Virus record (IMG/VR): IMGVR_UViG_3300028388_006029
Span: 1 to 21,126 of that record
Reading direction: 5' to 3' (one strand)
From: a virus
Length of the DNA stretch: 21,126 nucleotides
The stretch's first letter is position 1. Each line of letters starts with the position of its first letter. The notes under the pieces are model-generated. The model searched no databases. It had not been told where the DNA came from and saw only the letters and a program-made list of their open reading frames with translations. A program made the translations under genes and the position numbers. Shown here in pieces: positions 10,875 through 16,916 of this stretch.

Positions 10875-12050
10875 TTATAGAATCTCAAAAAATTTATTAT
10901 AATCTTTTATGATTTTATCAAAATTATAATTTTGTTTAATTAAAACGCTTCTTTTCTTAGCTATCTCTTTGTAATAACTCATATTTTTAAAAAACAAGTC
11001 TAACTTTAATAAAGCATCATCTTCACAAAATTCAGCCCACTCTTGGCCAATATTTTTATCAAAATAACTTTCATCGAAGTTTTTAATAGGTAATGTCTTG
11101 AATTTTATTTTTATAAAATCTTCTTCTAAAAATTCCTTATAAGCAGAATGATTTGTTGAAATTATAGGTAAACTACACCTAGCTGACTCCATAAAAGATA
11201 ATCCCCAACCTTCACCTCTAGTACCTGAAAACATGCAAGATATTTTTTGACAAATGTATAAGCTGTACATTTGTTTTTTACTTAAGTTTCCAAAAATAAC
11301 TTTTATTTTTCTTCTTTCTTTTTTATTAAAAACACTTCTAATATGAGAAATCATCTGATTTTTAAAAAAGCCCGTGTATTTACCAGTATTAATTTTTAAT
11401 AATATGCCTATATCTTTATCATCAACATATTTAACCGCTGTCTTAACTGTCCTAATTATGTTTTTCCTGTCAACATCTTCATTCACATTGTTAAATTGAC
11501 CAATTATTAATATATTTTTATCATAATGCAGATGATCTTCAAGCTTCTCTATAAAATCAAAGTCTACTACTTCATCATCAAATTCTTTAAAATATGATTC
11601 ATTTATTACGTAACATTTAGATCTAATAGGGGTATTAAACTTATTTGATGTATTAAAAAAAGCTTGCTGAGTAAACCCTGAAGGAAATATTAAATAATCC
11701 ATTAAGTTACTAAAGTCAATCCACTCTTTTTTAACAAAATTAGATTCAAAACCAGCAGTTAGTCCAATGTTTATTTTTGCTTCTTTGTTACTCCAAGAAA
11801 ATGGTGTACAAATCTGAAAAGATTCATCGAAAACAATGTTTTTATCAAATTTTGATAATTCTACTATTTTTTTAATTGTATCACTATCATCTTGGTCTTT
11901 TAGTAAAAAAGTCGTTAATCCCCATTCAGTAACTGCAGTATGCAAAACAATATCTTTTCTTTTTAATAATGCATTAAAAACTTGCCTAGCATGAACACCG
12001 TAACCTGATTGTGAAAGTAAAGGTCCTTTAATTAAAACTTTTTTTAGCAA
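10875..12050 (-). CDS. GT-B fold glycosyltransferase (family 4 type), second of a pair
   Basis: A 391-residue glycosyltransferase. The N-terminal strand and glycine loop are KVLIKGPLLSQSGYGVHARQ (residues 4-23). The C-terminal nucleotide-sugar site has the E-x7-E motif, E280 to E288, in RGEGWGLSFMESARCSLPII. These features are those of retaining GT-B enzymes that transfer a sugar from a nucleotide donor; donor and acceptor cannot be told. The start is TTG, overlapping the stop of the upstream glycosyltransferase by 7 nt; no ATG lies before the essential first strand, and GAGAT sits about 6 nt upstream. Pairing with a second, different glycosyltransferase suggests a two-step glycan addition, on virion proteins or on host surface polymers (inference). 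Enzyme class is confident. Confidence 0.85.
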   Translation of the reverse strand: MLKKVLIKGPLLSQSGYGVHARQVFNALLKRKDIVLHTAVTEWGLTTFLLKDQDDSDTIKKIVELSKFDKNIVFDESFQICTPFSWSNKEAKINIGLTAGFESNFVKKEWIDFSNLMDYLIFPSGFTQQAFFNTSNKFNTPIRSKCYVINESYFKEFDDEVVDFDFIEKLEDHLHYDKNILIIGQFNNVNEDVDRKNIIRTVKTAVKYVDDKDIGILLKINTGKYTGFFKNQMISHIRSVFNKKERRKIKVIFGNLSKKQMYSLYICQKISCMFSGTRGEGWGLSFMESARCSLPIISTNHSAYKEFLEEDFIKIKFKTLPIKNFDESYFDKNIGQEWAEFCEDDALLKLDLFFKNMSYYKEIAKKRSVLIKQNYNFDKIIKDYNKFFEIL

Positions 12051-13285
12051 TCTATTATCTCAAATCTACTTTTTGTCTTAAAGTTTTCTATTGTTTTTTC
12101 AATTGACTCGTCCCATAAATCTATACACTTCTTGTAATTGAATTCTTTTATAGCATATTCATAAGACTTTTTGCCTAATTCTATCTTTTTATTTTTATCA
12201 AAGTCATAAAACTTTTTAATAGACTCTGCAATATTTTCACACGAAGCGTGATCTTCATTTAAAAATTTAACTTTTTGATTTCCAGAAACTGTTATATAGT
12301 CTACATTAATAGCAATGCCGTTTTCTTCTTGACTAACTTGATTTACAACTTGTCTTGTAAGTCCTCCTGTCTTAACTGCAATTATAGGCGTTTGAGTCAT
12401 CATAGACTCTAACGTTGTTAGACCAAAGCCTTCGTTAAAAGATATGTTAATTGTAACATCAGAAATATTATATAAAACGTTAAGCATTTGAGTGCTTATT
12501 TTTGTTGTTGAAAAAATTACATTCTTATCTAATTGAAGATGATTTACAATTGACTCAAGGTCAACGCCGTGATGATCTTTAATGTCTGTATGCATTATTA
12601 ATAAGCACTTTTTTCTTTTACTTTCAGGTAACATATTAAGAAAAGCTCGCCAAGAAACAACTAAATCAAGAGGCCTTTTTCTTTTACAATTTCTATTTAC
12701 CCAAAGACAAACAAAGCTATCTACATTTTCTTTATCTAAAATTCTTTCTTTTTCTTTTGTAATTTCTTTTTCTTCTAGCTTATAGAACATTTCTTTCGGA
12801 TAAGAATGTGGTATATAATTAACTTTGTCTTCTTTTATGTTTCGACTAAGTAAATCATAAGTTAGATAAGAAAGACAGTTTATTGTATCAACTGAGTCAT
12901 ACATCCACTTGTTAAATTCTGGATAAGGTTTGTTGTCCCAGACGTGCCACCAAAGAATAGGGCAAATTTGGTGCACTTCGTCTTCTATTTCAAACAGGTA
13001 TTCGAAAAATCTAGGATCAGAAAAAATTATTAATGCATCAGGTTCTTCGTTGATCAAAACTGACCTTATTAAGTTAGTATTACCAAAGCCGTTAACTGGC
13101 TTTATGTAAAAATCATCATTAACTTTAACGGTTTCAAGACTCTGATGTTTTACAGCAGCACCAAGTTGTATTACAGAATATTTATTTGTTTCTAAAAGAC
13201 CGTCAATTAAAAGCTTTGACTGAACTCCTACGCCGCTTGGGGACAACGCATGATCTGAAATTACTAGTAATTTTTTCTTTTTCAT
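12044..13285 (-). CDS. GT-B fold glycosyltransferase (family 4 type), first of a pair
   Basis: A 413-residue glycosyltransferase. The N-terminus KKKLLVISDHALSPSGVGVQ carries the first Rossmann strand and glycine loop. The second domain begins near residue 192 (FVCLWVNRNCKRKRPLDLVV), and the donor-site E-x7-E motif is E285 to E293 within NEGFGLTTLESMMTQTPIIA. A WWHVWDNKPYP stretch lies at about 112-122 in the acceptor-side domain. Its ATG overlaps the nuclease stop (ATGA) and its 3' end overlaps the next glycosyltransferase, so three genes are tightly coupled. It is not a simple duplicate of its neighbour: the two share only the general fold and motifs. Substrate unknown; modification of tail fibres or host lipopolysaccharide are the usual suggestions for phage enzymes of this class. 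Confidence 0.88.
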   Translation of the reverse strand: MKKKKLLVISDHALSPSGVGVQSKLLIDGLLETNKYSVIQLGAAVKHQSLETVKVNDDFYIKPVNGFGNTNLIRSVLINEEPDALIIFSDPRFFEYLFEIEDEVHQICPILWWHVWDNKPYPEFNKWMYDSVDTINCLSYLTYDLLSRNIKEDKVNYIPHSYPKEMFYKLEEKEITKEKERILDKENVDSFVCLWVNRNCKRKRPLDLVVSWRAFLNMLPESKRKKCLLIMHTDIKDHHGVDLESIVNHLQLDKNVIFSTTKISTQMLNVLYNISDVTINISFNEGFGLTTLESMMTQTPIIAVKTGGLTRQVVNQVSQEENGIAINVDYITVSGNQKVKFLNEDHASCENIAESIKKFYDFDKNKKIELGKKSYEYAIKEFNYKKCIDLWDESIEKTIENFKTKSRFEIIDC

Positions 13286-14240: not shown

Positions 14241-16154
14241 ATGGCAACACATACTGATAATATTATGTTGTATAATGCAACTAAAGGAACATTAGATAAA
14301 ATTGGTGACACAGAAACCTTAGAGATTCATGGACTCGAGTTGACAAGCTCATTAACTGTCCCGGAAAGCTCTCTTACTCTTGGCACAACTGCAGTCACAG
14401 CAACTGCAACAGAACTAAACAAACTTGACGGCTTAACAGCATCTACTACACAGTTAGATTACGTGAACGTAACTACATTAGGCACAGCTGAAGCTTCAAA
14501 GGCAATCACGGTTGACGCATCTTCTCAAGTTGACGCAAGCACAATTACTTTCACAGACTTAGGAACAGTAACTACTGTTGATATAAACGGCGGTACACTA
14601 GATGGTGTTACAATTGGTGGAGCAAGCGCTGCAGCAGGTACATTTACTTCGCTTGATTGTACAGATGGAGCTTTTGCAATTGCAAATCTAGATATCGATG
14701 GCGGAACTGATATTGGCGCAGATCTAGTTGATAGTGATCTAATTGTTATCGACGATGGTGCTTCAGGTGCCAACAGAAAATCTGAATTATCAAGAGTCAA
14801 AACATATATTCAAACATCTACACTAAGCTTTACTGGAGCAAATACTTTTGAAAGCTCAGTTGGGCAAACTTTGCAAGGTGACGAAGGTAGCGCAGGTAAT
14901 CTTTATCTTAAAGCTGATCAGGGTGATGATGCTGGCGACTCTTGGGAAATTTCTGTTGCAGACGGTGGTGTACTTACGTTTAGCAACGACATTGCAGTCA
15001 AAAATACATTTGTAAATCACGTTACATTAACTCCTAATGCAACTGCAACAAACTCATCTGCTTTATTTGCAGGCAACGTTACAGTAAATGGTAACTTAAC
15101 TGTTAATGGTGACACAACAACACTTAGCACTTCTACTCTTACTGTTGAAGACATCAATATCGTTGTCGCAAACGGTGCGGCAAATAGTGCAGCAGCAGAC
15201 GGTGCAGGTATAACAATTGATGGTGCAGATGCTACTTTAACTTGGGTAAATGCTAGTTCTCATCTTGCATTTAACAAGGATGTAAATTTCCTAACTGACG
15301 GAATAAAAATCAACGGTACAGCTGTAACAGCAACTGCTGCAGAATTAAACAAGTTAGACGGTGTCACAGCAACAACAGCAGAAATTAATACTTTAGCTGG
15401 CTTAACAGCTTCAACTTCAGAACTTAATCTGCTAGATGCAACTGCAGGTTCAACTCTAGCACTTGCAGCTGGTGATGGATTAATTATTAATGATGCTTCT
15501 GACGGTAATGCAACCAAAAAGGTTTTAGTTTCTGATCTTACAGACTTTTTTGCTTCAAGCGGTACAACATCAGCTGATAACATTACAACAGGCTCTAGCG
15601 CTGTAGAAATTACCACAACTTCAGGTGACATCGTTGTAGATGCTCCTGCTGGACAAAGTGTTGATTTACAAGTAAATGGCGGGAATGTTGTAGAAGTGGC
15701 TGCAGATAGAGTTAAGGTTTCTCAGCCTTTAATTGTTACTGCAGCAGGTTTAAGCTTAGCACCAGCAGCTACACACCCTGCATTTGTTGCTGGCAATATT
15801 TTGGCTTTTGAAAGTGGTGCCTCAGGAGGTCTTGAGTTAGCCGATTGTGATGACAATGTCAATACGTATCTTAATGCACCGTTTGGAGTTGCATTAGAAT
15901 CTTCAGCGCTAGATGATACAACTGAGATTCTAGTACATACTATTCACGGTGGGCTTGTTAATGTTAAGATTGCCTCAAGCACAACTGCTAAAGGTCAATG
16001 GATTTATCTAGACGGAACTGCAGGACAAGCAACAACAACAGTTCCAACTGCAGGAATGGTTTGGAGGCTAGGACTTTGCGCAGAGCATAACGGAACCGCG
16101 GTCACAGACACAGATATTATTTGGATGCCTCAGTTTATAGCAGATTTAGGTTAA
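14241..16154 (+). CDS. Repeat-built tail fibre / virion structural protein
   Basis: A 637-residue protein beginning at ATG 14241, with AAAGGA about 10 nt upstream. It is rich in Ala, Thr, Ser, Gly and Asp and made of short beta-type modules: TATELNKLDGLTAST near residues 53-67, TAAELNKLDGVTATTAEINT near 363-382 and LTASTSELNLLDATAG just after. Two copies of an LIxxDDGxxGAxRK-like unit (DLIVIDDGASGANRKSELSR near 165-185 and GLIINDASDGNATKKVLVSD near 413-432) also occur. These modules are typical of marine myovirus fibres. The last 130 residues form a distinct domain, without repeats, ending in IIWMPQFIADLG, probably the tip or a trimerisation/decoration domain. Its base composition is visibly less AT-rich than that of the baseplate genes. 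First gene of a three-gene rightward unit. Structural role likely, host-recognition role inferred. Confidence 0.8.
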   Translation: MATHTDNIMLYNATKGTLDKIGDTETLEIHGLELTSSLTVPESSLTLGTTAVTATATELNKLDGLTASTTQLDYVNVTTLGTAEASKAITVDASSQVDASTITFTDLGTVTTVDINGGTLDGVTIGGASAAAGTFTSLDCTDGAFAIANLDIDGGTDIGADLVDSDLIVIDDGASGANRKSELSRVKTYIQTSTLSFTGANTFESSVGQTLQGDEGSAGNLYLKADQGDDAGDSWEISVADGGVLTFSNDIAVKNTFVNHVTLTPNATATNSSALFAGNVTVNGNLTVNGDTTTLSTSTLTVEDINIVVANGAANSAAADGAGITIDGADATLTWVNASSHLAFNKDVNFLTDGIKINGTAVTATAAELNKLDGVTATTAEINTLAGLTASTSELNLLDATAGSTLALAAGDGLIINDASDGNATKKVLVSDLTDFFASSGTTSADNITTGSSAVEITTTSGDIVVDAPAGQSVDLQVNGGNVVEVAADRVKVSQPLIVTAAGLSLAPAATHPAFVAGNILAFESGASGGLELADCDDNVNTYLNAPFGVALESSALDDTTEILVHTIHGGLVNVKIASSTTAKGQWIYLDGTAGQATTTVPTAGMVWRLGLCAEHNGTAVTDTDIIWMPQFIADLG

Positions 16155-16182
16155 ATTATATATAGGTAGTTTATTATCCAGC

Positions 16183-16228
16183 AAGATTATATTTATTAAC
16201 GTGCAAAAAATATTAATATAATCTTTTT
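16183..16228 (+). terminator. Possible terminator hairpin after the 637-aa fibre gene
   Basis: AAGATTATATT at 16183-16193 is perfectly complementary to AATATAATCTT at 16215-16225, giving an 11-bp stem with a 21-nt loop followed by a short T run (to 16228). The stem holds only one G-C pair, so it is weak, and the T run abuts the GGAG ribosome-binding site of the next gene. It may instead be an RNA-processing or translation-tuning hairpin. Confidence 0.4.
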
Positions 16229-16239
16229 GGAGTTACAAT

Positions 16240-16626
16240 ATGTCTACGAATGAAAAAATACTGAGAATTGGTCTAGGTGAAGCAATTTCTAGATTGATGA
16301 ATTTAGAATTAATGCGATCAAATAGACTTCATCCAATGCCTGATCAGGCAATTGCTGAAAGAGAAATGCTTTATTTAGCATTAAATGAGATCAAAATAGA
16401 TCTAGGTTTTGATTGTGATGGTGATGGTTTGCCAGACTCAGTAGAAATATTTGAAGAAAGCGCAAAGTCGTCTTGCTGTAGACTTGTTCAGACAGATGAT
16501 AACTTGTTGCCTAGACGAAAAGAAATCAGTCGTGCAAAGATACAAAAAGGCAAAGTAACACGCTCTTCTAAACCAAAAGAACAAATTAAAAAAGAAAGAA
16601 AGCGTCGTGCGTCTAGTAGAAAATAA
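16240..16626 (+). CDS. Small protein with a calcium-loop motif and a strongly basic tail, function unknown
   Basis: A 128-residue protein starting at ATG 16240 with TTTGGAG upstream. Residues 5-55 look helical (RIGLGEAISRLMNLELMRSN). Residues 58-69 are a perfect calcium-loop pattern, DxDxDGxxDxxE (DCDGDGLPDSVE). The proline before the fourth aspartate is as in bacterial thrombospondin type 3-like DGLPD repeats rather than animal EF-hands. This is followed by SSCCRL (C79, C80); with C59 there are three cysteines. From about residue 92 the tail is almost entirely Lys/Arg/Ser (KKERKRRASSRK at the end), which suggests nucleic-acid binding or an unstructured anchor. It sits between the fibre gene and a membrane protein. 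I do not recognise a named family; a virion accessory or fibre-assembly role would be a guess. Confidence 0.8.
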   Translation: MSTNEKILRIGLGEAISRLMNLELMRSNRLHPMPDQAIAEREMLYLALNEIKIDLGFDCDGDGLPDSVEIFEESAKSSCCRLVQTDDNLLPRRKEISRAKIQKGKVTRSSKPKEQIKKERKRRASSRK

Positions 16627-16646: not shown

Positions 16647-16916
16647 TTGTCTCTGTTTGAACTTTTGTTTTGTTACGGTTTAACCTTTGGAATGATGAAT
16701 AAAACTGCGCAAATACAAAACAGGTTGAATATTGATTTTATAAAAGAAATGTTATCTTGTTCGTATTGCACAGGTTTTCATGCTGGCTGGTTAAGTCTTT
16801 TAATTCTTCATCCAGAATTATTTTTTAATATCCAGACTTTTATCTATTGGTGCCTCGTATCTTCATCTTTTTGTTATATAACAGACACACTTGTTGTTTA
16901 CTTAGAAGATCGCTAA
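16647..16916 (+). CDS. Small membrane protein with CxxCTGFH motif, function unknown
   Basis: An 89-residue protein beginning at TTG 16647. This start is supported by AAGGAG at about 16633-16638 and by the absence of an earlier start in frame near it. Two to three hydrophobic stretches are seen: LFELLFCYGLTFGMM at the N-terminus, GWLSLLILHPELFF in the middle, and FIYWCLVSSSFCYITDTLVV near the C-terminus. Between the first two is LSCSYCTGFHAGW, with C38, C41 and H45, reminiscent of the CPxCxGxW motif of DUF1360-like small membrane proteins. The cysteine pair and histidine could bind metal or be redox-active. Third gene of the rightward unit, 20 nt after the 128-aa gene. Possible envelope-related function; not known. 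Confidence 0.72.
   Translation: MSLFELLFCYGLTFGMMNKTAQIQNRLNIDFIKEMLSCSYCTGFHAGWLSLLILHPELFFNIQTFIYWCLVSSSFCYITDTLVVYLEDR

Follow-up and report, generated by a model that had tools for sequence, protein, structure and literature searches.

A three-cysteine protein and a DUF1360-like membrane protein encoded by a recurring gene pair in large uncultured phages

The window analysed here is the whole 21,126-nucleotide stretch of viral DNA from IMG/VR record IMGVR_UViG_3300028388_006029. Within it, a small gene lies between a large fibre-type gene and a gene for a small membrane-type protein, all on the same strand. The features of this region are as follows (loci are identified below by numbers with the prefix L).

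14241–16154, + strand: gene for a large fibre-type appendage protein of 637 aa; tail-fibre-like repeats, and a C-terminal domain that ends in ...PTxGxVxRxG...PQFIA..
16177–16231, + strand: predicted RNA hairpin, the 3′ arm of which holds most of the Shine–Dalgarno sequence (GGAG, 16229–16232); proposed translational lock
16240–16626, + strand: gene for the Cys3/calcium-loop protein, ATG start, 128 aa
16273–16389, + strand: N-terminal helical hairpin, residues 12–50, with conserved GLGxA..RL ... ALN (block pLDDT 86–88)
16411–16446, + strand: DxDxDGxxDxxE loop, residues 58–69, with the invariant Cys59 at its second position
16474–16479, + strand: vicinal Cys79–Cys80, invariant, followed by Arg81
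16486–16623, + strand: Lys/Arg-rich tail, variable, of low confidence and probably disordered, as judged from conservation and predicted structure
16647–16916, + strand: partner gene, 89-aa DUF1360-like membrane protein, TTG start, with C38-x-x-C41-x-G43-x-H45-x-G47; predicted three-helix membrane-type bundle

Residues 58–69 of the 128-aa protein read DCDGDGLPDSVE, an exact fit to DxDxDGxxDxxE which a preliminary description of this DNA had singled out as rare by chance. When the protein was shuffled 200,000 times the motif never arose, and among the 52 window ORFs of at least 60 aa it was present in one, namely this one, where shuffled sets of ORFs gave a mean of 0.0. The match is therefore no artefact of composition, and its rarity is borne out. 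The vicinal cysteine pair and basic tail that had been described after the loop are also present, as Cys79–Cys80 and as a segment (residues 82–128) with 18 Lys/Arg against 5 Asp/Glu. When the gene was compared with those of five close relatives, dN/dS was 0.03–0.23 and pS 0.58–0.72, with the core (residues 8–82) less changed than the tail. With pS this high and dN/dS in this range, the frame at 16240–16626, on the translation of which the preliminary description depended, is therefore translated and selected for its protein.

The AlphaFold model of the 128-aa protein has a mean pLDDT of 65.8 and consists of a confident helical hairpin (12–27 and 35–50), a short helix at 69–76 and little else. 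A Foldseek search of the PDB with this model gave no match at an E-value of 0.001 or better; the rows of a VIA fold search, with Z up to 4.9, mainly covered the helical hairpin (residues 5–54) and contained no related fold. The best Pfam match of the window protein was TSP3_bac (PF18884; E 0.005, residues 58–70), and the DxDxDGxxDxxE loop is shared with this family and with dockerin-type loops. However, the score of 17.1 bits lies below the cut-off of 25, the loop holds a cysteine, the surrounding domain is different, and the window protein has a single loop rather than the tandem repeats of TSP3 (two loops being found only in L007/L023). TSP3_bac was matched weakly by three of 18 family members. 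As regards canonical EF-hand geometry, the model places 18 residues between the helices at 35–50 and 69–76 (block pLDDT 57–66), and no Pfam EF-hand match was obtained for the window protein at E-values up to 1.

Relatives of the protein, here called the three-cysteine family, were found at seven viral loci by a scan with the single protein and at 19 by a scan with an alignment, the contigs being partly shared. A DNA pattern based on the loop matched 36 stretches, all 36 of which carry a family member. A total of 40 distinct core sequences were placed on a tree. The relatives come from uncultured, often very large phages in environmental sequence, with several members in records of 126–308 kb, although fragments make up most of the records, and the loci that carry the family together with its partner span 0.27–0.70 GC. 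The gene is single-copy: exactly one match was seen in 13 of the 15 records searched and none in the other two, which are partner-only. Two contigs from metagenome-assembled genomes (MAGs), L028 (RFZO01000148.1) and L029 (RGPS01000183.1), also carry the gene. They are filed under Actinomycetota and Terriglobia MAGs, their DNA is phage-like and L029 also has the partner; they are probably phage contigs that were binned with their hosts.

No believable match was found when four members were used as tblastn queries against 50,697 phage records. None of the models in the curated families (Pfam, PHROGs, NCBIfam) claims the three-cysteine protein, PDB sequences gave nothing convincing for it, and phrog_34396 matched a single family member (8.8e-5). 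Within the accessible parts of the open PMC literature on DUF1360, on thrombospondin-type-3/EF-hand phage proteins and on patatin in phage lysis, no paper dealt with the gene pair. The family thus appears to be undescribed in the libraries searched; its separate elements (the calcium-type loop, the DUF1360 fold and the hairpin at the ribosome-binding site) are each of a known kind.

The preliminary description was silent on the DUF1360-like gene directly downstream, which proved to be the most informative neighbour. This partner was the next gene on the same strand, at a spacing of −4 to +20 nt, in all 28 distinct members with downstream sequence (29 distinct members were found by their own sequence, and the 29th, L028, stops at the contig end; the spacing list runs to 30 entries, two of them being truncated duplicates of members already counted). 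The stop of the three-cysteine gene and the start of the partner often overlap. F14, K19, C38, C41, G43, H45, G47, D80 and E87 were invariant in the 27 aligned partners, all of which were reached via the three-cysteine gene (the copy in L062 was omitted as its sequence is identical to that of L051). Each of nine records searched contained one partner.

The partner model has a pLDDT of 95.8 and helices at 3–19, 39–54 and 62–88. Its best BFVD match was A0A6J5RIU7, a DUF1360 phage protein (TM 0.87/0.77, rmsd 1.9, E 8.7e-4). The partner therefore shares the fold of DUF1360 (PF07098), with a weak sequence match over the CxxC region, although the window partner scored 14.2 bits against a cut-off of 21 (E 0.046) and differs from DUF1360 in its CxxCxGxHxG motif and in the small-protein neighbour of most copies found. 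Across the 27 partners the DUF1360 Pfam model was matched weakly by six, with a best E-value of 0.013. A fold search of the PDB with the partner model gave weak rows only, and the partner as a query in phage records returned nothing convincing. The top VIA score (Z 5.7, to a TIM23-complex subunit) was within chance for helical bundles. There was no convincing match to a phage holin either, proteins named holin being matched at E 5 or worse.

To what extent the loop and the cysteines define the family can be seen from two sets of sequences. In an alignment of the 29 distinct members, C59, C79, C80 and R81 were invariant, as were G11, G13, A15, L48, F57, D62 and D66. This set was mostly collected with the loop as bait and is biased towards it; D58 was found in 28 of its members and D or N at position 60 in all 29. 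A set free of this bias was obtained with the partner pattern CxYCxGFHxGW as bait, which gave 60 stretches. A family member lay upstream in 43 of these (32 distinct proteins; in four cases a different stretch of the contig was used to decide). All 32 proteins have the three cysteines, each core containing exactly three, whereas the loop, written as D.[DN].D[GDSN]..D, was found in 28, a count made with a profile built from loop-bearing rows which members too distant from the profile would escape. Cys59, which lies inside the loop and was absent from the preliminary description, is thus as conserved as the vicinal pair.

The four exceptions (L082, L084, L086 and L087) have lost the loop aspartates and have retained the cysteines and the partner. 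On the tree the loop underwent four changes, of which at least two are forced by well supported branches and one falls within the sister pair L017/L084, where L084 is sister to a loop-bearing member. The spacing from Cys59 to the vicinal pair varied from 20 to 30 in the partner-found set. In L007/L023, two DxDxDGxxD loops stand in tandem between Cys59 and the vicinal cysteines. The loop can be lost and duplicated and its spacing is variable while the cysteines are always present, and it is therefore an accessory of the cysteine core. These comparisons favour a reading of the calcium-type loop as a dispensable structural staple.

This alters the picture given in the preliminary description, where calcium sensing or stabilisation was the essence of the protein and where homologues lacking the loop aspartates were expected to count against it. 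Such homologues exist, and calcium sensing as the main function is accordingly set low; the loop nevertheless persists in the large majority of the partner-found relatives. Joint conservation of loop, cysteines and tail holds fully for the cysteines and largely for the loop; a basic tail accompanies them in most members, but its sequence is free. A calcium-triggered switch, whereby calcium entering a leaking or infected cell would fill the loop and alter the hold of the protein on membrane or nucleic acid, could account for the general retention of the loop aspartates in both sets and for the two loops in a row in L007/L023. However, a trigger should be indispensable, and with four relatives that have lost the loop and kept the cysteines and the partner we consider such a switch very unlikely.

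Net charge per tail residue reaches +0.10 or more in 23 of the 29 members, and the tail is near neutral in the other six, including L028, which is cut by the contig end; a conserved tail charge was rejected on these grounds. The near-neutral tails of L017, L018, L025 and L029 terminate in motifs resembling GFFxx[LM][LF], of which L048 and L050 have related forms. This GFFxxLF-like C-terminal motif is perhaps a short docking or membrane motif.

The Shine–Dalgarno-like GGAG of the 128-aa gene, at 16229–16232, lies largely within the 3′ arm of the predicted hairpin, and a hairpin at the same place is predicted in L009, L004, L080 and L086 despite quite different stem sequences. As a control, the 90 bases preceding every ORF in nine A/T-rich loci that starts with ATG, reaches 80 aa or more and has free space upstream were folded. 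By a criterion that was set after the folds had been seen (z below −1.4 and at least seven of 12 bases of the Shine–Dalgarno region paired), a hairpin was predicted for seven of eight family starts against none of 43 other starts. The eight include two close relatives, the window and L011; the start that failed is that of L068, and the start in L012 had been dropped by the overlap rule.

The starts of the T4 genes e, soc, 49 and I-TevI are hidden in RNA helices, and transcripts of gene e that arise from late promoters lack the 5′ part (PMC3014915). The family gene is like these T4 genes in that a stable hairpin is predicted to take up its Shine–Dalgarno sequence in the 3′ arm; in L080 and L086 it is the stretch up to the AUG that this arm holds. 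Unlike the T4 examples, the hairpin here precedes a gene of unassigned function in other phages. Should the predicted hairpin act like that of T4 gene e, synthesis of the pair would be confined to late infection.

A TATAATTAATAT-like box is found 19–31 nt before the ATG in the window, L010, L013, L080, L086 and L068; in L009, L011 and L012 the best match to TATAATTAATAT lies elsewhere. In the window the box is weakly enriched (21 occurrences where 13.2 were expected, with 4 of 100 shuffles as high). Several relatives have the box inside the hairpin, where it may correspond to the internal late promoter of T4. In the window, no T4-consensus TATAAATA was found near the 128-aa gene and no terminator-like site around it; sigma-70 promoter-like sites there occurred at chance level only and were discounted. 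In the G/C-richer loci L020, L021, L022, L026, L029, L043, L048, L051, L062 and L067, the gap before the gene contains, by eye, a hairpin followed by T's, and the pair therefore seems insulated from the appendage gene.

The preliminary description had placed the ORF next to a fibre gene, and a fibre-type gene does precede the family gene in the window and at most loci with upstream sequence. The gene before the pair usually encodes a large appendage protein, the last 100 residues of which follow, by eye, G.P.YLS...G.....PT..G.V.R.G.....PQF(I/V)A; among these appendage rows a few are wrong-frame ORFs (e.g. L007, L017, L028 and L079) and eight have no upstream ORF or a different one. No confident family name was obtained for the 637-aa appendage protein of the window. 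Among the neighbouring genes on the other strand of the window are those for baseplate wedge proteins, for two glycosyltransferases and for an exonuclease, from which the phage is contractile-tailed. The two glycosyltransferase genes (phrog_2170) are adjacent and lie in the structural region, at 10875–13285.

In T4, fibre gene 37 is followed by the helper gene 38 and the holin gene t. The loci studied here have the same order of a large fibre-type gene, a small soluble protein and a small membrane protein, although the DUF1360-like protein, unlike the t holin, has three predicted helices, and the likeness to T4 is one of gene order alone. On this basis the three-cysteine protein might be a fibre-tip adhesin or a helper of fibre assembly that binds the C-terminal domain of the appendage protein, with the loop and a disulfide giving stability outside the cell. 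There is little free calcium in the bacterial cytosol, and such a loop would fill outside the cell; moreover, at most of the loci with upstream sequence the gene comes, as judged by eye, directly after an appendage gene with the recurring C-terminal pattern. However, the tight coupling is to the membrane gene rather than the fibre gene, and at many loci a hairpin or a terminator-like element (the terminators by eye) stands between the latter and the pair. In addition, a patatin gene intervenes in L017, and a membrane-type partner would be unlikely in a tailed virion. We therefore regard a role at the fibre tip as unlikely.

The simplest reading is instead that the three-cysteine protein forms the soluble part of a membrane module that is made late, given its tight coupling with a CxxC membrane gene, its position after the appendage gene and the predicted lock on its translation. 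We put forward tentatively, at a little under an even chance, that the product of the 128-aa ORF is the soluble component of a membrane module which large tailed phages encode in two genes and express late. That the two proteins act jointly at the membrane seems probable. The dependence appears to run one way, because the partner was found alone in 17 of the 60 partner stretches (no three-cysteine protein being present in their records, many of which are fragments), while every member of the three-cysteine family that could be judged had the partner.

In such a module the soluble protein and the partner would bind each other at the cytoplasmic membrane. The cysteines would make the contact, whether by thiol exchange, by a disulfide or by a metal site common to both proteins; the calcium-type loop would act locally to staple the segment between Cys59 and Cys79, and the variable, usually basic tail could aid docking to the membrane or to nucleic acid. 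In the A/T-rich relatives, the hairpin would delay translation of the pair to late infection. The job of the module could be lysis or late control of the host envelope, for example lysis timing, although we hold this to be possible rather than likely. In the window, none of the genes flanking the pair could be recognised as a lysis gene. Patatin-like phospholipase genes are present in L017 (7072–8004; Pfam E 9.6e-34), directly upstream of the module, and in L092 (4063–5013; E 6.7e-23), directly upstream of a partner-only copy. A more specific version, to which we give a low probability, is an undescribed device in which the three-cysteine subunit docks on the three-helix CxxCxGxHxG protein through thiols or a metal and, delayed by the hairpin, disables or remodels the inner membrane, with a patatin beside it in some phages.

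The nearest alternative to envelope control would be exclusion of superinfecting phage. With help from the soluble protein, the membrane protein would mask receptors or otherwise prevent related phages from adsorbing or from getting their DNA into the cell. Blocking of this kind is a known pattern among small phage membrane proteins, and the recurring position after an appendage gene would suit this role. Exclusion genes, however, are often early and non-essential, whereas the pair seems late from its hairpin and is kept across loci of 0.27–0.70 GC, so that exclusion is in our view rather improbable.

What began as an isolated calcium motif in one ORF is thus a widespread two-gene unit in large uncultured phages, with invariant cysteines in both proteins, a predicted RNA lock and a wide range of base composition. 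If the pair does act on the host membrane, as in the proposed late membrane module, it would represent a late envelope module of a new type; if it does not, the family still unites dozens of unannotated phage genes under one identity and points to a few key residues.

We also noted that in L072, L074, L075, L076 and L096 the slot upstream of the DUF1360-like gene is occupied by a coiled-coil-like protein (449–886 in L074) in place of the three-cysteine protein. This protein has a basic tail in L074 and L096, and in L075, L076 and L096 the next gene downstream encodes a product ending in DCC, ECC or EYC.
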